In this document: positions 38,789-59,816 of the stretch, one piece after another | Layout of the letters: each line of letters begins with the position of its first letter | Numbering within the stretch: the stretch's first letter is position 1 | Position numbers and translations under genes: made by a program | Assembly (NCBI RefSeq): GCF_900403705.1 | Contig: NZ_OUNR01000019.1 | Span: 62,001-126,000, forward strand | Reading direction: 5' to 3' | Source of the DNA: Nitrospira lenta | GTDB taxonomy: Bacteria; Nitrospirota; Nitrospiria; Nitrospirales; Nitrospiraceae | DNA length: 64,000 bases | The notes under the pieces: generated by a model | The model's input: the letters and a program-made list of their open reading frames with translations, nothing else | Told to the model about the DNA's origin: nothing | Database searches by the model: none

Positions 38789-39127
38789 ATGACAAAGAAT
38801 GGGAACCTATTGAGAGGTGTCGTCGCGGCTCTGATGATGGTGAGCGTCGTGGCTTGCGCGGTGATTGCCAGTCCGCCTCAAGACCTGGTTGCCAAGAACG
38901 ACCACGCGGGGTTGGAAACCTGGTATGTGAAGGAGGCCGCCCATCTCCGACAACGTGCGAAGGACATGCTGGTCATGGCGGAGGAGTATAAGAAAAATCC
39001 TGAAGCGGGTTCGCGCGGGGTGCTGTCCTCCAAGATCGATATGGTCCAGCACTGCCAAAGCCTCGCGGCCATCTACGCCAAGGCGGCTGATGAGGCAGAG
39101 GTTATCGCCCGCGCGCATCGAGACTGA
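38789..39127 (+). CDS. Small lipoprotein after RND operon 1
   Basis: 112 residues with a lipoprotein signal (LMMVSVVACAVIAS) and a helical mature part (HAGLETWYVKEAAHLRQRAKDMLVMAEEYKKNP, SLAAIYAKAADEAEVIA). AAAGGAGGGG precedes the ATG. No metal motif beyond one His-Cys pair (VQHCQSL). Function unknown; the location suggests an envelope role connected with metal export. Confidence 0.75.
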   Translation: MTKNGNLLRGVVAALMMVSVVACAVIASPPQDLVAKNDHAGLETWYVKEAAHLRQRAKDMLVMAEEYKKNPEAGSRGVLSSKIDMVQHCQSLAAIYAKAADEAEVIARAHRD

Positions 39128-47289: not shown

Positions 47290-47410
47290 AGACTTCGTAT
47301 CGCACTGATTGGAACGCCGTGAAGCTCTCGCACCAGAGAGGGGGGTGGCGACTCTCAAAAGGAAGCGCCTTCTGAGCGTGACCAGTCTGGGCGACCAAGG
47401 GAGGAACAAC

Positions 47411-49790: not shown

Positions 49791-49877
49791 CGTTCGCCAA
49801 GCCTGGCGTTCATGACGAGGCTTCGTACGTCGTGCACCGCTTGGAAGATAATCGGCAGCTTAGAAAGACGAGGTTCC

Positions 49878-50813: not shown

Positions 50814-51182
50814 TTGAGCGTGGCCTCAGCCGGAGTGGCATCAACTATCGGAGTTGTCATGCCGGTCTATCTCAACGAAGCGTATGAACGGCGAGTGCGT
50901 GAAGGCCGCAGGACGACAGTTCAAGACCTGCGTGAGGTCATGATGGAAGGAGTAGTTCAGCGGGTGCGGCTCAAGGTGATGACCGTCACTGCCGTCATGG
51001 GCGGGTTATTGCCAATCATGTGGACCACCGGTCCCGACGCCGATATGATGAAACGGATCGCTGCACCGATGATTGGTGGTATGGCCGACTCGACCATCCT
51101 TACGCTGATCTTTCTTCCGATCCTCTATGCCATGTGGCGACGCGTTCAGCTCTGTTGCGTGATTCCGAGTCCTGTATCGTAG
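50814..51182 (+). pseudogene. CusA C-terminal fragment 2
   Basis: About 120 codons matching the last three membrane helices of CusA (ASTIGVVMPVYLNEAYERRVREGR, GGLLPIMWTTGPDADMMKRIAAPMIGG, ILYAMWRR), followed by an unrelated end (VQLCCVIPSPVS). It begins at almost the same CusA residue as fragment 1. The 3' part is the start of a segment duplicated at 58.5 kb. Confidence 0.88.
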
Positions 51183-51374
51183 AGAGTTGCGGTAGGAAGC
51201 CATGAACCAGAGCAAATATAAATGTGCTTTACCTGAATGAGCGGAGACACAGAAGGGCGGCACATTGAGAAGCCGACCTTCTGCCCTCTCAGCGGTCAGC
51301 TCACGAGGTTATGCACCCACTGCCACGCCTTGGAAGCGGCCTCATAGGGGCAAAAGCCAAACTGTTCTACCCAG
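51026..51374 (+). repeat. Duplicated segment, copy A
   Basis: Closely similar to 58533-58880: the CusA 3' fragment, a hairpin, and the peptide-gene remnant read on the minus strand. Beyond 51374 the similarity jumps to 59579, so about 700 bp (peptide start, divergent promoters, merR, 5' part of ahpD) is missing in this copy. Confidence 0.85.
51296..51374 (-). pseudogene. Remnant of the 28-residue peptide gene
   Basis: Reads VEQFGFCPYEAASKAWQWVHNLVS and a stop, differing from the intact copy by Glu to Gln and Ile to Val. The start codon, ribosome site and promoter are lost at the breakpoint near 51374. Confidence 0.75.
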
Positions 51375-51392
51375 TAGAAGCTCCTGACTGCG

Positions 51393-51617
51393 ATGGCTAT
51401 CTCGATGGCGATTCGTTGCAAACCCTGTATCAGGGCTTATGTGAGGATGGCCTATGATAAGGGCGTCTCACAGGAGGAGCTGATTGAATTCCTCGAAGTG
51501 GCCATGACGATGCAAGGCTGTCCGGGGGAAGAATGGGCGCTCAAGGCGTATCGTGGCTACAAGGAATGTCTGATGGGCGGGCCCACAGACAAGACCGCGT
51601 TGTGCTGCGAACACTGA
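51393..51617 (+). pseudogene. AhpD-like protein, N-terminally truncated
   Basis: 74 residues equivalent to residues ~45-118 of the intact protein at 59460. CKPC and VSQEELIEFLEVAMTMQGCPGEEWALKA are kept, but the first ~45 residues are lost by the deletion. It still has an ATG, so expression is not excluded. Confidence 0.75.
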
Positions 51618-51725: not shown

Positions 51726-52343
51726 ATGAACAAGAAGAAGCAGGCAGTTCCACAAGACGAGCTCTCCTTCACCGCATCAAACGCGACTCCTGAACCTCAC
51801 CTGAACGATATGATCCAACGGCTTCTAGAGCACGAGTCTGCGTTTCGAGTGTTCTTACATCGTCGTGTCGGTGATGAGGCGGTGGCGGAGGACTTATTGC
51901 AACAAAGTATGATTCGAGCCGTTCAACGTCACCATTCTGTGCGAAATGATGACAGTGTGGTGGCCTGGTTCTATAAAATCATTCGCCACACACTCATCGA
52001 CTATTATCGATCGAAAAGTGCAGAAGCTCGTCGCAATGAAGCCTTTCTCCAAGAACTGACTCTCTCTGGAGACGATAAGGAGCCTCCGATCGATGAGATG
52101 AAAACCACCGTCTGCACTTGCCTTCACCGTCTCCTTCCGAAGTTGCGTTCGAACTATGCCGAGCTCATCCGGCGCATTGATCTCGAGGACGAATCTCCGA
52201 AACGCGTGGCGGAGGAGTTGAAGATCTCTCAAAGCAATCTCACGGTTCGGTTGCACCGAGCCCGTCAAGCCTTGCGCGCCAGCCTGGAACAGTCCTGCGG
52301 GGTCTGCAGTACACACGGCTGCCTGAATTGCACGTGCGACTAA
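51726..52343 (+). CDS. ECF sigma factor with cysteine-rich C-terminal tail (CorE-like)
   Basis: 205 residues. Sigma-2 region: FRVFLHRRVGDEAVAEDLLQQSMIRAVQ and VAWFYKIIRHTLIDYYRSKSA. Sigma-4 region: LIRRIDLEDESPKRVAEELKISQSNLTVRLHRARQALR. The tail has Cys 191, 194, 199, 202 and 204 (CGVCSTHGCLNCTC), and a CTC motif (130, 132) lies between the two regions. This layout matches the metal-sensing ECF class known from Myxococcus CorE, which needs no anti-sigma protein, and none is encoded here. It stands upstream of copZ and copA, so direct metal control of these genes is inferred. AGAGAGGAAC precedes the ATG. Confidence 0.85.
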   Translation: MNKKKQAVPQDELSFTASNATPEPHLNDMIQRLLEHESAFRVFLHRRVGDEAVAEDLLQQSMIRAVQRHHSVRNDDSVVAWFYKIIRHTLIDYYRSKSAEARRNEAFLQELTLSGDDKEPPIDEMKTTVCTCLHRLLPKLRSNYAELIRRIDLEDESPKRVAEELKISQSNLTVRLHRARQALRASLEQSCGVCSTHGCLNCTCD

Positions 52344-52400: not shown

Positions 52401-52413
52401 TACAGGCACTGTA
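52401..52413. promoter_or_regulatory. Dyad upstream of copZ
   Basis: TACAG-GCA-CTGTA, perfect 5-3-5 inverted repeat about 90 bp before copZ, next to an AT-rich TAATAATT. Possible operator; identity of the regulator unknown. Confidence 0.25.
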
Positions 52414-52504
52414 ATAATTGGCGTCCTCTTCCGTCTGAAGGGGTGAAGGATGCGCGTTTCTTGAATGTGAGATGCGCGAAACCCACTCACTGAGGAGGTT
52501 CGAC

Positions 52505-52723
52505 ATGGACGAATTGACCCTGAAGATCGCCGGAATGAGCTGCGGGCATTGCGTCGGACAGGTCACGAAGGCGCTGACCCGGCTCGACGGTGTGCGGGTG
52601 AACAGCGTGAAGGTCGGCGAAGCAATCGTCGTTTATGACCCGAGGGAGATCGTTCCCACGGAGATTATCCAAGCTGTGAACGAGGCGGGATATGAGGCCG
52701 AGTTGGTCAGGAGGGTGGCATGA
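52505..52723 (+). CDS. copZ: CopZ-like copper chaperone (HMA domain)
   Basis: 72-residue ferredoxin-like HMA protein with the metal site GMSCGHC and the family end NEAGYEAEL. Delivers Cu(I) to the CopA ATPase encoded two genes later. GAGGAGG precedes the ATG; its stop overlaps the next start (ATGA). Confidence 0.93.
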   Translation: MDELTLKIAGMSCGHCVGQVTKALTRLDGVRVNSVKVGEAIVVYDPREIVPTEIIQAVNEAGYEAELVRRVA

Positions 52724-53099
52724 GCATGATGGAATGGATGGTCATCATCGGCGGCATCGCGGCGATGATCTGGATCAACTGGTACTTCTTTCTGGCCCGA
52801 CAGACGGTGTCGAACGCCGCGATCAATGTGGAGGGAGTCCAGGAGGTCGCCATTGTGGTTGAAGGCGGCTATCACCCAGCCGTGGTGAGCGTGAGAGGGA
52901 CAGGCCGGTCCGGCTCGTCTTTGACCGACGAGAACGGTCAGGTTGCTCGGAAGAGATCGTCTTTCCAGATTTTGGGGTCCACAAGTGCTTGCCCGCCTTC
53001 CGAAAGACCACGATCGAGCTGACGCCGACACAGACAGGCGATTTCGTGTTCACCTGCGGGATGAGCATGTTGCGCGGCCGGCTCATCGTGCAAGACTGA
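52720..53099 (+). pseudogene. Cupredoxin-domain membrane protein, frameshifted
   Basis: Starts in frame with a membrane helix (MEWMVIIGGIAAMIWINWYFFLA) and VVEGGYHPAVVSVR. The cupredoxin ending then continues in another frame from about 52905 to 53099: [49 protein letters not shown] one-base deletion near 52890-52905 explains both parts. If intact it would hold a Cu site (Cys-Ser-Glu, Cys, Cys-Gly-Met-Ser-Met) next to copZ and copA. A sequencing error cannot be excluded. Confidence 0.8.
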
Positions 53100-53112
53100 C
53101 GAGGAGGAAACC

Positions 53113-55539
53113 ATGCCGACCACGACTCCCTTGATACTGATAGAGAAACGGAACCCAAAAAATACGGCTCAACAAACCGGGACCAATGCAGTGACTGCCC
53201 ATGAGAAGGTCACAATTCCCGTGAAGGGAATGACCTGCGCCGCCTGTCAGGCGCGCGTGCAACGGGCGCTACAGGCAAAACCGGGCGTCTTCGACGCCTC
53301 AGTGAATCTCATGCTGAAGAATGCCGCCGTCACGTACGATCCTGTGGTGACCTCCCCCAAGGCCCTGGTCGAGACGATCCGCGAGACCGGGTATGGTGCA
53401 GAACTCGCCGCGCAGGATCAGACTGCGTTCGATGAACAGGAGGCACAGGATCGGGCGCAGGAGGAAGAGTATCGGGAACTCAGGCACAAGGCGTTATTGA
53501 GTGGAAGCATCGGTTTGTTGGCCATGACACTCTCCATGCCGCTTATGGGGGCTGCCGATGCAGATGTCCATGGACCGGTTGCCGATCTGTTCATGCGATG
53601 GGCGATGGAATCAATGACCCCCGCCATCCATGCCGTCGCTCCCTGGCTCTATACGTTCACCCCATGGGTATTATCGTACGCGCTGCTCGCGCTGACCCTG
53701 CTCGTCATGGGTTGGGCGGGGCGGCATTTCTATGTGCGCGCCTGGTCCGCCTTCCGACATCACTCGGCGAACATGAACACACTCATCGCCGTGGGCACAG
53801 GGGCCGCCTTCCTCTACTCCGTGCTGGCGACTGTGGCGCCGGAGTTCTTCCTGAGTCGGGGCGTGCTGCCGGACCTCTATTATGAGGCGGTGATCATGAT
53901 CATTGCGCTGATCCTGACCGGCAACGCGCTGGAAGCGCGGGCCAAACGACAGACTTCCGTGGCCTTGAGGCGCCTGGTGGAACTCCAACCGAAAACGGCG
54001 CGGGTGGTGCGGGCCGGCGCTGAGGTCGACATCCCAGTGAACGACGTGCAGAGCGAGGAGATCGTGATCGTGCGGCCGGGAGAACGCATCCCTGTGGACG
54101 GAGCAATCATTTCCGGGACGAGCGCGGTCGATGAATCGATGGTGACGGGCGAATCATTGCCGGTCGAAAAACAGCCGGGGGATCGCCTCATCGGTGGCAC
54201 GATCAATAGGACCGGCGCCTTCCGGTATCGCGCGACGACGCTGGGGTCGGACAGCGTCCTGGCCCACATCGTCAAGCTGATGTGTGATGCTCAGGGCTCA
54301 CGGGCTCCCATCCAGAGGCTCGCCGATCAGGTCAGCGGGATCTTCGTGCCGATCGTGCTGTCACTCGCGATCGCGACGTTTGTGATCTGGTTTGTTACGG
54401 CTGACCAGGCGCCGGCCATGCGTGCGTTTGCCGCGGCGGTTGCGGTCCTGATCATTGCCTGCCCCTGCGCAATGGGACTTGCCGTGCCGACTGCCGTCAT
54501 GGTGGCGACCGGCAAGGGAGCCGAAAGGGGTATCCTGATCAAGGGCGGTGAGGCGTTGCAGCGGGCTGGGCAGATTAACACCGTCGTGTTGGATAAGACC
54601 GGCACGATCACCGAGGGACGGCCGACCGTCACGGACGTGGTACCGGTTTGGGGTACGGAGTGGTCTGAAAAAGATCTCGTACGGCTGGTCGCCTCGATCG
54701 AGGCCTCCTCTGAACATCCGCTGGCTGAGGCGATCGTGCGCTATGCGAACGAGCAGTCGTTGCCCCTGGCGACGGCAGACTCGTTCCAATCGGTCACGGG
54801 ACAGGGAGCAACTGGCGTGGTAGATGGTGCCGCGCTGGCTGTTGGCAATGAGGCGCTCATGGCTGATTATGCGGTGGATCTCACCGCAGTGAAAGAGGAG
54901 GTGGAACGTCTAGCCGGTGAAGGAAAAACGCCGATGTATATCGCGATCAACGGGAAGTTGGCAGGGTTGATTGCCGTAGCCGACCCGATCAAGCCCACAT
55001 CTCGTGAGGCCATTCAAAAATTGAACCAGCTGGGGCTCATGGTGGTGATGCTGACTGGGGATCACCGCCGCACGGCGGAGGCCATCGCACGGCAGGCCGG
55101 GATTGACCGCGTGGTCGCTGGGGTGTTGCCGGAAGGCAAAGTGGCCGAGGTCCGTCGCCGACAGCAGGCGGGAGAGGTCGTCGCGATGGTGGGCGATGGC
55201 ATCAACGATGCTCCTGCCCTGGCACAGGCCGATGTCGGGTTCGCAATCGGCACCGGCACCGATATCGCTATGGAAGCGAGCGACGTGACATTGATGCGGA
55301 ACGATCTCCGCGGCGTCGTGTCGGCTATTTTGCTAGCCAGGCGAACGATGCGGACGATGAAACAAAATTTGTTCTGGGCATTTGTCTACAACGTCGTGGG
55401 CATTCCCGTCGCGGCCGGTATTCTCTACCCGGCCTTCGGTATTCTGCTCAGCCCCATTCTTGCCAGTGCGGCCATGGCGTTCAGTTCAGTCAGCGTGGTG
55501 ACGAACAGCCTCCGCCTCCGGCATGCGCGGGTGGCGTGA
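53113..55539 (+). CDS. copA: Cu(I)-exporting P1B-1 ATPase
   Basis: 808 residues. N-terminal HMA domain with [11 protein letters not shown] (residues ~36-46), eight membrane helices, TGES, the metal-site [47 protein letters not shown], and the P1B-1 markers [11 protein letters not shown] and [15 protein letters not shown]. Exports cytoplasmic Cu(I) to the periplasm. An extended N-terminal leader before the HMA is unusual but short. Transcribed with copZ and the cupredoxin gene. Confidence 0.96.
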
Positions 55540-56159: not shown

Positions 56160-57170
56160 ATGCGTACGCGACAACTGTTGGCATTGTTCGGCGTCACGAT
56201 CCTCATCGCCGGCATCACGGGGGCCTGTGCCCCGGTCGAGCAACGGGATAAGCGGTTCTATTACCGCGCCCTGTGGAATTTTGCATTGCGGGAGCAGTTG
56301 AAAGAACTGGATATTGAATTCAATGGCGTCGACTTTGGGCACTCGAACCTCTATGAAAATCTCCTGTTGACGGGAGCCAAAGATGTGTCGGCCATTGAGG
56401 ACAGGGCAAGGAAGGAGACGCTCCGGTTTATTTATTCTCGGCCAGTTCTCAACCCGAATGAAGAAGCGATTGCGCCAAACTATATGAAATTGGCGTGGAA
56501 GGCGCAGAATACGTTTGATGAAGCCCATGCGCTTCACCGGGCCACCTACGATATCTATGTCTCGGACATCGAAGACAAAAAGACGGCCATCCACAACGTA
56601 TTGGCGTTTTACAAGGAGAGTCAGTATGCGATCACCGCGAAGCAGCTGGATCATCAACGGTTGGATACCTTCCCGTACTCGAAATCGTTTCGCCGAAAGT
56701 TTCCGCTCTTCAACGCCACAATTTGGGCCTACCACTATCTCCAGGTTGTGGTCTATGACGCGTTAGCTGTGGCTCCGGACCTTCCGGCAAAACAAAAAGC
56801 TGTCGAGCCGATCCTGAGGACCTATCATGGCTATTTGCAGAAGCCACCGGTGGAATGGACGTTCATGCCGATGACGGCAGAGCTGAGTCCGAAGTTCGCG
56901 GCGGAGTATCCCGAGATCGCCAACATCTTCGATAACCTCCACATGATGCATGACAACATCAGTGACATTCTCACCAGCGATCTCCTCCCGACCTGGGAGG
57001 GAAAGCGCCAGGAAATCTACCGCGTGACCCAGACCTACTACTGGACCAGTGCGGATGCCACGAACCCCTTCTTCGTTCGTGAGGGACAACCCCACCACTC
57101 TGGCTTGACCCCAGGGGTAGAACCCGGAGCGCCGGGCGAACAGTCCGGACACTCAGGAGGTCACCAGTGA
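56160..57170 (+). CDS. Lipoprotein of unknown function
   Basis: 336 residues; AGGAGAG precedes the ATG. Lipoprotein signal (LIAGITGACAPVEQ) and a mostly helical mature part rich in Tyr, His and Met (YPEIANIFDNLHMMHDNISDIL), with a His/Gly-rich tail (HSGGHQ). No family recognised. The stop overlaps the GTG of the outer-membrane protein gene, so the two probably act together. Confidence 0.75.
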   Translation: MRTRQLLALFGVTILIAGITGACAPVEQRDKRFYYRALWNFALREQLKELDIEFNGVDFGHSNLYENLLLTGAKDVSAIEDRARKETLRFIYSRPVLNPNEEAIAPNYMKLAWKAQNTFDEAHALHRATYDIYVSDIEDKKTAIHNVLAFYKESQYAITAKQLDHQRLDTFPYSKSFRRKFPLFNATIWAYHYLQVVVYDALAVAPDLPAKQKAVEPILRTYHGYLQKPPVEWTFMPMTAELSPKFAAEYPEIANIFDNLHMMHDNISDILTSDLLPTWEGKRQEIYRVTQTYYWTSADATNPFFVREGQPHHSGLTPGVEPGAPGEQSGHSGGHQ

Positions 57171-57940
57171 AAAGGAATACTTCCAGGGGTGTCGTACTGT
57201 TCCTGCTGATGGTGCCGACCGTCGTCTGGGCGTTGGACCACGACAATCTGGACCCCAACCGTCCCATTGCGATTGAAGATGCTTATGTGGTTCCGAAAGG
57301 AGAGATCGGGGTCGAGGGAGGACTATTATTTAGTGACCGCAAGCGAGGGGACAGCCGACTCGTGTTCCAGCCTCAGCTGATCATCGGGGCATTCAACAAT
57401 ACCCAATTGGAGCTGAGTAGCGATGTGTCGACGGACCCGAGGTCCGTCGTAGGGGATGATAAATCAGGCAATCTCACGGTCGGCGCGCTGTATAACTTCA
57501 ATACCGAGACCCTGAGCCTGCCAGCCTTTGCAGCCCGCGTACAACTGGGGTTTCCCACCGGTGTGAGTGCGAAGGGAGTCGATACCGCGCTGACCGGCGT
57601 GATGACGCGCTCGTTCGGGCAATGGCGAACCCATGTGAATGTGGGGTATACGTTTCTGGGATCTCCACAGGGGATGGAACGGGTGGGAGCGTACCGTGTG
57701 GTAGCGGCGGTCAGTTATCCGCTCGGATATCCCACAAGTTTTCGCGATACCATTATTGCCAACGTCTTCACCCGCCAGTCTGATCTCCTGGGCCAACGGA
57801 ATCCGACAGGCATTGGGATCGGTCTTCGGCATCAAGTCAGTTCCCGAGTCGTCGCTGATGTAGGCATCGGGAGTGAATTAATCGGGCCAGCAGATCGATC
57901 CGTGTTCTTCAGCACCATCGGACTGTCGGTGGGATTCTGA
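57167..57940 (+). CDS. Outer-membrane beta-barrel protein
   Basis: 257 residues: signal peptide (GVVLFLLMVPTVVWA) and a mature part with many alternating amphipathic strands and the aromatic C-terminal Phe of outer-membrane barrels (FFSTIGLSVGF). Resembles the transporter-like barrel proteins annotated near metal resistance genes, but the substrate is unknown. AGGAGG site; GTG start coupled to the lipoprotein. Confidence 0.75.
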   Translation: MKRNTSRGVVLFLLMVPTVVWALDHDNLDPNRPIAIEDAYVVPKGEIGVEGGLLFSDRKRGDSRLVFQPQLIIGAFNNTQLELSSDVSTDPRSVVGDDKSGNLTVGALYNFNTETLSLPAFAARVQLGFPTGVSAKGVDTALTGVMTRSFGQWRTHVNVGYTFLGSPQGMERVGAYRVVAAVSYPLGYPTSFRDTIIANVFTRQSDLLGQRNPTGIGIGLRHQVSSRVVADVGIGSELIGPADRSVFFSTIGLSVGF

Positions 57941-58529: not shown

Positions 58530-58688
58530 TCTTCCGGCACCGACGCCGATATGATGAAACGGATCGCTGCACCGATGATCGGAGGTAGGGCCAGCTCGAC
58601 CATCCTGACGCTGATCGTTATTCCGATCCTCTATGCCATGTGGCGACGCGTTCAGCTCTGTTGCGTGATTCCGAGTCCTGTATCGTAG
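58530..58688 (+). pseudogene. CusA C-terminal fragment 3
   Basis: GTDADMMKRIAAPMIGGRASSTILTLIVIPILYAMWRR followed by the same unrelated end as fragment 2 (VQLCCVIPSPVS). Only the last membrane helix region remains. Confidence 0.88.
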
Positions 58689-58880
58689 AGAGTTTCGGTA
58701 AGAAGTTCTGAACCAGAACATGTATAGATGTGCTTCGCCTGAATACGAGAAGCCACAGAAGGGCGGCATATTGAGAAGCCGCCCTTCTGCTCTCTCAGCG
58801 GTCAGCTCACGAGGTTATGCACCCACTCCCACGCCTTGGAAGCGGCCTCATAGGGGCAAAAGCCAAACTGTTCTATCCAG
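58533..58880 (+). repeat. Duplicated segment, copy B
   Basis: Similar to 51026-51374. In this copy the following peptide start, promoters, merR and full ahpD are retained. Confidence 0.85.
58756..58789 (-). terminator. Terminator of the 28-residue peptide gene
   Basis: Perfect 12-bp stem CAGAAGGGCGGC / GCCGCCCTTCTG with a 10-nt loop, 13 bp beyond the stop codon on the minus strand; a weakly T-rich tract follows. Confidence 0.65.
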
Positions 58881-59022: not shown

Positions 59023-59463
59023 ATGGCTGCTCAACTAACGATCGGTCAGCTTGCCAGAATTGTCGGAGTGAATGTCCAAACCGTCCGCTACTACGAGCGT
59101 CTGAATCTGCTCAGGCCATCAGCAAGGAGGCCTTCGGGGTACAGACTGTACAGTCATGAAGAGGAACGACGTCTCCGGTTCATCAGGAACGCCCAAGCGC
59201 TCGGCTTCACGCTGCACGAGATCGCTGAGTTGCTCGTTCTCCGGGTTGCCTCAACGACTCGCTGTGGTGAAGCGCGGGAAAAGGCTCGGGCGAAACTGGT
59301 GCAGGTGGAATCCAAAATTGACGACTTACAGGCACTGGCCCGCGCACTGAACAGTTTGATCCGGGCTTGCAGGGTTGGCCGGCCCACCGGCCACTGTTCG
59401 ATTCTGATGAGCCTTGAAGAAGAAATAAAATCTGGCGCGAAGAAGGGAGTGGCAAAAGGATGA
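59023..59463 (+). CDS. MerR-family metal-responsive regulator
   Basis: 146 residues. N-terminal helix-turn-helix (LTIGQLARIVGVNVQTVRYYERLNLL) and long dimerisation helix (EKARAKLVQVESKIDDLQALARALNSL). Cys at 81, 116 and 125 fall within one residue of the Hg(II) ligands of Tn501 MerR (82, 117, 126), with the same spacing. A thiophilic metal (Hg, Pb, or Cd) or thiol stress is therefore likely as inducer. No merT, merP or merA lies nearby. Overlaps the ahpD start by 4 bp. Confidence 0.92.
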   Translation: MAAQLTIGQLARIVGVNVQTVRYYERLNLLRPSARRPSGYRLYSHEEERRLRFIRNAQALGFTLHEIAELLVLRVASTTRCGEAREKARAKLVQVESKIDDLQALARALNSLIRACRVGRPTGHCSILMSLEEEIKSGAKKGVAKG

Positions 59464-59816
59464 CAACGGAACGCGAGAGGCTGTTCGCGGAATTACGTCG
59501 CTTGAGTCCGAAGGTAACCGGCGGCTTACTACGCATGCGCCAGGTGACCTATCGGGATGCGGCTGTCGCAGCCAAATACAAACTGCTGACGGCCATGGTC
59601 GTCTCCATTGCGATTCGTTGCGAACCCTGTATCAGGGCGTATGTGAGGATGGTCTATGATAAGGGTGTCTCACAGGAGGAGCTGATTGAATTCCTCGAAG
59701 TGGCCATGACGATGCAAGGCTGTCCTGGGGAAGAGTGGGCGTTAAAAGCTTTCGCGGCCTTCAAGGAATGTGTGAGCGGGCAGCAGGCGGCAGATGCTGT
59801 GTGCTGCGTTCACTAA
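59460..59816 (+). CDS. AhpD/carboxymuconolactone-decarboxylase-like protein
   Basis: 118-residue all-helical protein of the AhpD-like family. The redox CxxC is in IRCEPCIRAYVRM, followed by SQEELIEFLEVAMTMQGCPGEEW; two further Cys close the chain (CCVH). Such proteins reduce peroxides or act as thiol oxidoreductases. Translationally coupled to merR, so it belongs to the metal or thiol-stress response. Confidence 0.88.
   Translation: MTTERERLFAELRRLSPKVTGGLLRMRQVTYRDAAVAAKYKLLTAMVVSIAIRCEPCIRAYVRMVYDKGVSQEELIEFLEVAMTMQGCPGEEWALKAFAAFKECVSGQQAADAVCCVH

Follow-up and report, generated by a model that had tools for sequence, protein, structure and literature searches.

The window, by which we mean the whole 64,000-nucleotide stretch of Nitrospira lenta DNA analysed here, carries at 51726..52343 on the plus strand (ATG at 51726, stop at 52343) a corE-like gene for an ECF sigma factor of 205 residues (P0001). 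It is followed on the same strand by a gene for a copZ-like HMA copper chaperone (52505..52723), the first gene after the predicted promoter described below, by a gene for a membrane-anchored cupredoxin-like protein (52720..53100, 3' end approximate) and by copA (53113..55539), which encodes a Cu-type P1B ATPase (TIGR01511, 630.7 bits; cut-off 397). The start of copZ was picked by its ribosome-binding site, the mechanical open reading frame (ORF) starting at 52472. The initial annotation had placed the sigma factor next to a copZ-cupredoxin-copA unit; copZ and copA do follow corE, but the cupredoxin gene (52720-53022) is frameshifted relative to the related loci L036-L038. In the window the reading frame of its first ~59 codons differs from that of its C-terminal half, whereas the gene is one 126-codon ORF in L036 and L038 and reads through into copA in L037; the frameshift may be either real decay or a sequencing error.

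Two more plus-strand genes, for a conserved lipoprotein that fits none of the Pfam and NCBIfam families (56160..57170; poor structure model, 45.1) and for an outer-membrane-like protein of the Phenol_MetA_deg family (57167..57940), possibly belong to the copZ-copA unit by predicted read-through. The same pair also follows DUF4396 behind corE in L046, L048, L050 and L031/L052 (one locus), which suggests that the two proteins are an unknown copper-handling pair.

Upstream of corE lies a 5'-truncated ahpD-like (CMD) gene (51393..51617, plus strand). The segment before corE (51028-51573) duplicates 58534-58880 (91%) and 59577-59775 (87.5%), an RND-tail/merR/ahpD segment, and the copy beside corE lacks 696 bp with merR and the 5' end of ahpD. 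L037 retains merR-ahpD-corE intact, so corE in the window has lost an adjoining regulator. Genes of Cd/Zn type are present in the window too, namely a P1B ATPase at 47309 (TIGR01512, 513 bits; cut-off 313.5) and a CDF gene at 49812.

Domain composition and cysteine motifs of the sigma factor

Pfam analysis of the corE product gave matches to Sigma70_r2 (1.1e-11) and Sigma70_r4_2 (3.6e-08) and none to a sigma-3 domain, so that the protein has the sigma-2/sigma-4 build of the CorE-like (ECF44) factors, and the proposed ECF sigma factor is a real ORF of 205 residues. The absence of an adjoining anti-sigma gene was likewise borne out, as no Pfam anti-sigma domain was found in the 14 window ORFs scanned around corE (9 + 5; other families or none). 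The best NCBIfam match was SigZ (TIGR02959) at 114.5 bits, under its cut-off of 168.65. An AlphaFold model (mean pLDDT 72.9) was uninformative about the metal site, with pLDDT below 50 in the tail (192-205) and at 115-128, just ahead of the linker motif, and a PDB profile search with corE returned 14 ECF sequences, none of which matches past profile position 175 of 182.

All seven cysteines of the protein (130, 132, 191, 194, 199, 202 and 204) fall inside two motifs, in agreement with the five-cysteine tail and the CTC motif between sigma-2 and sigma-4 that had been noticed at the outset. The linker between sigma-2 and sigma-4 contains the CxC of CorE-like (ECF44) factors as C130-T-C132 (codons at 52113..52121, plus strand), and the tail reads C191-X2-C194-X4-C199-X2-C202-X-C204 (codons at 52296..52337, plus strand), a spacing that did not arise in 300000 shuffles of the corE protein. 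In Myxococcus xanthus CorE, the tail cysteines are 181, 184, 189, 192, 194 and 206, of which C184 is clearly required for inactivation, whereas activation is affected most strongly by C189, and C181 and C206 play minor roles (PMC3107203, cited throughout from parts of its text). Compared by these published positions, the first five tail cysteines of the window protein stand at identical spacing: the four invariant CRD cysteines (CorE 181, 184, 192 and 194) correspond to C191, C194, C202 and C204, and the fifth (CorE 189), which marks the copper subtype, to C199. In CorE2, which responds to Cd/Zn, the tail is C-C-X3-C-X2-C-X-C and its second cysteine sets specificity (PMC9023288, available sections); the window protein has a serine (S195) instead of a cysteine at this metal-selecting position and no extra cysteine next to the CorE 184 position. 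In an alignment of the window protein with 39 of the 43 fetched loci, both linker cysteines, the five tail cysteines and H197 show no variation, an invariance biased by the use of the peptide HGCLNCTC as one fetch probe; the four loci left out were two C-terminal fragments, one partial ORF and one unrelated ECF. The published cysteine rules and the gene context point to copper as the signal and to direct metal binding by the corE product.

Relatives and phylogenetic placement

The nearest relatives come from Nitrospira sp. and N. defluvii, and three relatives share 86-87% identity with the corE product over 204-205 residues. A scan with one genome per species yielded 43 loci. Searching 98 Nitrospirales genomes returned many ordinary ECFs, and 46 places at E <=9.4e-26 in 37 genomes were taken as corE-like, including three of CorE2 type and three from genome G084 with other tails. 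We also searched 188 genomes of Myxococcota, the phylum of the genome that holds locus L063, and obtained matches at E <=1e-15 in 31 of them. Among 100 distinct ORFs (tblastn E <=1e-8, identical DNA removed), 76 have the full CorE spacing, 3 the CorE2 spacing, 3 lack the fifth cysteine and 18 have other or truncated tails. The CorE spacing with the sixth cysteine (C194-X11-C206) occurs in none of the fetched tails.

In a midpoint-rooted tree of 97 rows, among which M. xanthus CorE and CorE2 are not represented, the window protein groups with L036-L038 (100/98) within a Nitrospirota clade (99/96) beside Bdellovibrionota. SigZ and two ordinary ECFs of the N. lenta genome fall outside the CorE-like clade, as does L116, which passes the SigZ cut-off (182.6 bits) and has another tail. 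The 83-row clade around the window protein (branch support 88/71) includes two plasmid proteins, from Phenylobacterium zucineum HLK1 and Roseobacter litoralis Och 149, organisms that are on the 2011 CorE list (PMC3107203); judged by organism and replicon these would be the listed genes, under different locus tags. At this support the window protein appears to go with CRD-bearing CorE-like factors, apart from SigZ, and no grouping with a class that uses an anti-sigma factor was seen.

A predicted CorE promoter before copZ

Aligning ten corE-copZ spacers revealed two conserved islands, ACTGTAA(T/G)A and CCGTCT (TCGTCT in one spacer), and from these we derived a motif. In the window it marks a predicted CorE promoter at 52409..52436 on the plus strand, between corE and copZ, with CTGTAATA as -35 and CCGTCT as -10 (CTGTAATA-N-CCGTCT) and 17 bp between TGTAA and CGTC. 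The pattern CTGTAAN{15,18}CGTCT has one match in the window, at this position, against 0.04 in shuffles, and a scoring matrix built from 39 relatives, with the window's own site excluded, scores it at 35.1, compared with 7.1 for the second best place in the 64 kb and at most 8.3 in shuffled or reversed sequence. The spacing between TGTAA and CGTC is 17 bp in 39 of 40 sites. Several bases outside the finding pattern are nearly fixed as well: the C before TGTAA (39/40), the T and C before CGTC (39/40 and 38/40) and the T after CGTC (38/40). No inverted repeat of at least 8 bp was found in the corE-copZ spacer. A looser form, CTGTAAN{15,18}CGTC, occurred 20 times in the N. lenta genome against 34 for the reversed control, and since it shows no excess, only the strict form is informative.

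The initial annotation had envisaged a regulon in this locus, with a motif shared by the metal genes of the island. One strong promoter-like site does stand directly before copZ, so a regulon in this locus is not lacking, but no other metal gene of the window has the site. We therefore rejected a regulon common to the whole metal island: no place in the window apart from the copZ site scores (35.1 versus 7.1), and accordingly neither the RND pumps nor the P1B ATPase at 47309 nor the CDF at 49812 is a predicted member. CorE would read the 52409-52436 site and, by analogy with M. xanthus, control would take the form of activation by metal.

A TGTAA/CGTC motif within 600 bp upstream of corE was found in none of 52 Nitrospirota rows (3 of them with less than 560 bp of upstream DNA), and therefore corE is probably expressed by other means. 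The upstream regions of 25 corE loci have no obvious element common across clades. In four Myxococcota loci (L094, L097, L098 and L100), the motif lies behind corE before copA, and a second copy (TGTAACC...CGTCT) lies ~460-500 bp upstream, possibly marking a second target.

Co-occurrence of the site with corE and copper genes

Of 36 Nitrospirota CorE-type loci held out from deriving the motif, 29 carried the site no more than 333 bp behind corE; among other windows of these loci, which served as background, 11 of 1557 had it. The strict pattern CTGTAAKAN{12,16}CCGTCT yielded 38 sites in the 98 Nitrospirales genomes (18 for the reversed control), of which 26 lie within 1 kb downstream of a corE-like place on the same strand. 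By genome, a strict site was found in 29 of 37 genomes with a corE-like place but in only 4 of 61 without one (Fisher 1.6e-13, a value that overstates independence because the counted loci and genomes are related).

The remaining 12 strict sites fall outside that 1-kb range, and 4 are known to precede copper genes. In G022 and G043 such trans sites stand before copZ-copA (copA matches of 68%) and in G052 before YHS-copA (51%), at ~0.8-0.9 Mb from corE in G022 and G052 and on another contig in G043; in G089 the site is ~4 kb from corE, before copZ. The strict sites of G034, G011 and G084 contig 2 fall before or inside genes unlike copper genes (7 of the 12 were inspected).

At seven Nitrospirota loci whose flank is long enough, the motif is missing from the 333 bp behind corE. 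In L009 it differs by a single base (CCGTTT) and stands before YHS-copA. L027, L030 and L032, from G052, G022 and G043, have the site elsewhere, before YHS-copA, copZ-copA and copZ-copA, respectively. It is ~4 kb away and before copZ in L148, and ~1.8 kb away and before copZ in L076, a corE fragment at a contig end; in L075 a TGTAA/CGTCT match lies on the opposite strand, ~0.7 kb behind corE. In L030 and L032, where corE is unlinked from the copper genes, the site behind corE looks decayed (e.g. TATAATAATCC...CCGTCT), as if perhaps no longer selected.

Of the 41 Nitrospirota CorE-type loci whose site lies no further than 333 bp behind corE, 39 continue with copZ (9), a YHS-domain CopA (19), DUF4396 (10, fused to HMA in L060) or an HMA-DUF4396 fusion (1, L055). 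As to the other two, in L008 a second motif copy ~900 bp further on precedes YHS-CopA, and in the plasmid locus L083 the next ORF, annotated as hypothetical, matches CopA at 35%. In other phyla, the site turned up in 9 of 26 loci, each time ahead of a CopA-like gene (6 loci from the Myxococcota search and 3 from Bdellovibrionota), while 17 of the 26 CorE-type loci, all with enough flank, lack the motif behind corE, so that it does not mark the family as a whole.

In L028, L029, L031, L046, L048, L049, L050, L053, L054, L055 and L060, the predicted CorE promoter is followed first by a gene for DUF4396, a membrane family without known function whose members in these loci have His-rich ends. DUF4396 was called by the motif HCL[ST]GC, and Pfam confirmed one protein, from L031 (1.5e-42). 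Its fusion to a copZ-like HMA domain in L055 and L060 suggests a role in copper handling; PMC7760498, in the part of its text available, mentions both DUF4396 and copper.

Among other copper regulators, a search for CsoR had no success in any of 35 same-genus genomes and succeeded in 2 of the 59 genomes searched in all. In the N. lenta genome, no MerR-type protein scored above the CueR cut-off, two match the CueR profile below it, and the window MerR at 59023 scores best, below the cut-offs, as a Zn- or Hg-type regulator.

CorE2-type paralogs on the same contig

Outside the window, 16.5 kb behind corE, the contig encodes a CorE2-type paralog (C19:130879-131532; L079:4879-5532) with 50% identity, whose tail CGPCCERNCRNCMC has the CorE2-type arrangement CC-X3-C-X2-C-X-C. 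The remnant of another CorE2-type copy, with a tail reading CDPCCERDCRDCTC, lies ~17 kb further on (L080:3604-3770). Paralog and remnant each have a variant promoter at the 3' end (TGTAATG...AACGTCTAT; matrix scores of 15.0 and 13.2), and G021 and G051 have a CorE2-type factor with the identical promoter variant. The gene next behind the three intact CorE2-type factors encodes a small protein, lipoprotein-like in two cases and no known pump. The three factors form one clade (100/100) inside the Nitrospirota CorE clade at 90/94, and this nesting makes an origin within Nitrospirota possible but not secured.

For the RND pump beside the paralog, of which the window holds the N-terminal part (63403 onwards), we dropped a CzcA-type reading, as this part presumably is CusA-like by its signature. 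The neighbourhood thus gives the Cd/Zn reading of the paralog no support, and the published cysteine rule is its sole basis. We also noticed a small lipoprotein-like family, likened by eye, at L079:3721-4101 (minus strand), L079:4384-4773, L079:5687-6031 and window 38789-39127; one small lipoprotein-like copy in the metal island lies directly behind a CorE2-type promoter.

Discussion

Computation at this locus established the class of the sigma factor, its cysteine spacing, the absence of an anti-sigma gene among the tested neighbours, and a conserved site that co-occurs with corE and copper genes. Taken together, we propose that the corE product is very probably a CorE-type (former ECF44) factor acting as its own copper sensor and driving copZ-copA from the 52409-52436 site. 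Cytoplasmic copper would be bound by the five tail cysteines, probably with H197, jointly with the C-T-C pair of the linker, and binding would release or stabilise the DNA-binding form of CorE. CorE with RNA polymerase would then read the 52409-52436 site and transcribe copZ, copA and possibly the genes after copA, whose copZ and copA products would remove copper. A drop in copper, or its reduction, would return CorE to the inactive form, and such a switch would not require an anti-sigma factor.

Metal choice is where this proposal is most open to challenge. It is conceivable, though in our judgement unlikely, that the corE product answers mainly Cd, Zn, Ag or thiol oxidation and that copZ-copA induction is part of a general response to metals. 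In M. xanthus, induction of a CorE target was also seen with Cd and Zn, at a weaker level (PMC3107203), and the window holds a Cd/Zn-type P1B ATPase (47309) and a CDF (49812) as well; the site, however, stands before none of the window's Cd/Zn genes and precedes copper genes in 39 of 41 Nitrospirota loci, while in the other two a copper-type ATPase lies further on or is recognised by BLAST. In addition, the corE tail lacks the extra cysteine that sets CorE2 for Cd/Zn (PMC9023288, in part) and has the copper-critical fifth cysteine (CorE C189).

We consider it very improbable that some other sigma factor or regulator, such as a CueR-like MerR or the housekeeping sigma factor, recognises the conserved site, with corE a mere neighbour. 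Such a reading could appeal to the two MerR-type proteins of the genome that match the CueR profile below cut-off, to the merR directly upstream of ahpD-corE in L037 and to the strict sites in 4 of 61 genomes without a corE-like place, a number near chance level. Against it, the site tracks corE by genome (29 of 37 versus 4 of 61), also where the two are unlinked, and it persists in the window even though the merR copy beside corE has been deleted. Its layout is ECF-like (TGTAA / CGTC), with the 17-bp spacing in 39 of 40 cases, and the corE-copZ spacer contains no dyad. Slightest of all is the chance that the protein is a SigZ-like or ordinary ECF whose cysteine tail binds Zn structurally and which an unlinked anti-sigma factor controls: SigZ is its best NCBIfam match (114.5 bits) and the anti-sigma scan covered neighbouring window ORFs, leaving room for an unlinked partner, but the score is under the cut-off of 168.65, L116, which passes that cut-off, lies outside in the tree with another tail, and overexpression of M. 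xanthus CorE gave no sign of an anti-sigma factor in the available text of PMC3107203.

Beyond the copper sensor proposed here, we tentatively offer a wider reading, which we would rate, all parts together, at somewhat short of an even chance. In Nitrospirota, corE and its promoter may form a portable switch with an exchanged load, the same promoter feeding copZ-copA, YHS-type CopA, DUF4396 or HMA-DUF4396 and following copper genes that move. The N. lenta genome may run a copper switch and a CorE2 (Cd/Zn) switch side by side, the latter with a shifted -10 (AACGTCTAT), and the metal-selecting cysteine of the CorE2 type was possibly gained within Nitrospirota, independently of Myxococcus. On this view CorE, in place of CueR or CsoR, may be the chief regulator of cytoplasmic copper in these nitrifiers.

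Nitrospira are nitrite oxidisers, some of which also oxidise ammonia, in soil and water treatment. A recent study (PMC13374858, 2026) ties copper supply to niche separation between comammox Nitrospira and ammonia-oxidising bacteria; by a word search of the part of its text available, it seems not to treat the sensing of copper excess in Nitrospira. A one-protein sensor with a predicted 28-bp promoter offers a testable copper switch for organisms that are hard to manipulate, and the natural pair of CorE-type and CorE2-type factors is useful for learning how cysteine spacing sets metal choice.

Neither the type of sensor nor its connection with copper ATPases is new, since PMC3107203 defines the family, includes a Nitrospira member in its list and shows CorE targets. 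In the part of the literature covered, we found no account of a CorE promoter or regulon in Nitrospira, of exchanged targets or of the sigma pair, and the well-supported addition made here is a promoter prediction for a known sensor type. The pairing with copZ-copA had been called notable at the outset; it was indeed found, but it is less unusual than supposed, as in M. xanthus cuoB, copB and an HMA gene depend on CorE (PMC3107203). For M. xanthus copA, only the early induction is CorE-dependent, and the authors want more work.

Like CorE, a former ECF44 factor that is unclassified in the new scheme (PMC8999054, consulted in part), the window protein has a sigma-2/sigma-4 build, a CxC linker, a tail of C-X2-C-X4-C-X2-C-X-C, no linked anti-sigma gene and adjoining copper genes; the portion of PMC3107203 used here likewise reports no anti-sigma gene linked to any of its 21 CRD-bearing ECFs. 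Unlike CorE, it lacks the sixth tail cysteine (C206, of minor role in CorE), and whereas CorE is partly autoregulated, corE in the window has no such site upstream. The -35 element of the window site reads TGTAAT; in M. xanthus the search was made with AAC and a conserved G 16-18 bases further along. The Cd/Zn-responsive CorE2 of M. xanthus has the same architecture, and the second paralog of N. lenta shares its CC-X3-C-X2-C-X-C tail. SigZ (TIGR02959) is the best curated family by score, but the match is under cut-off and the tail is different. OrbS of Burkholderia, an on-board iron sensor, is likewise an ECF with a metal-binding C-terminal cysteine cluster, but its cysteine spacing is another one and Fe(II) inhibits rather than activates it (PMC9023288, in part). 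Of the same family and genus is NIDE1902 of Candidatus Nitrospira defluvii, a CRD-bearing ECF known from its listing in the legend of Figure 9 of PMC3107203, which is likely orthologous to corE of the window.
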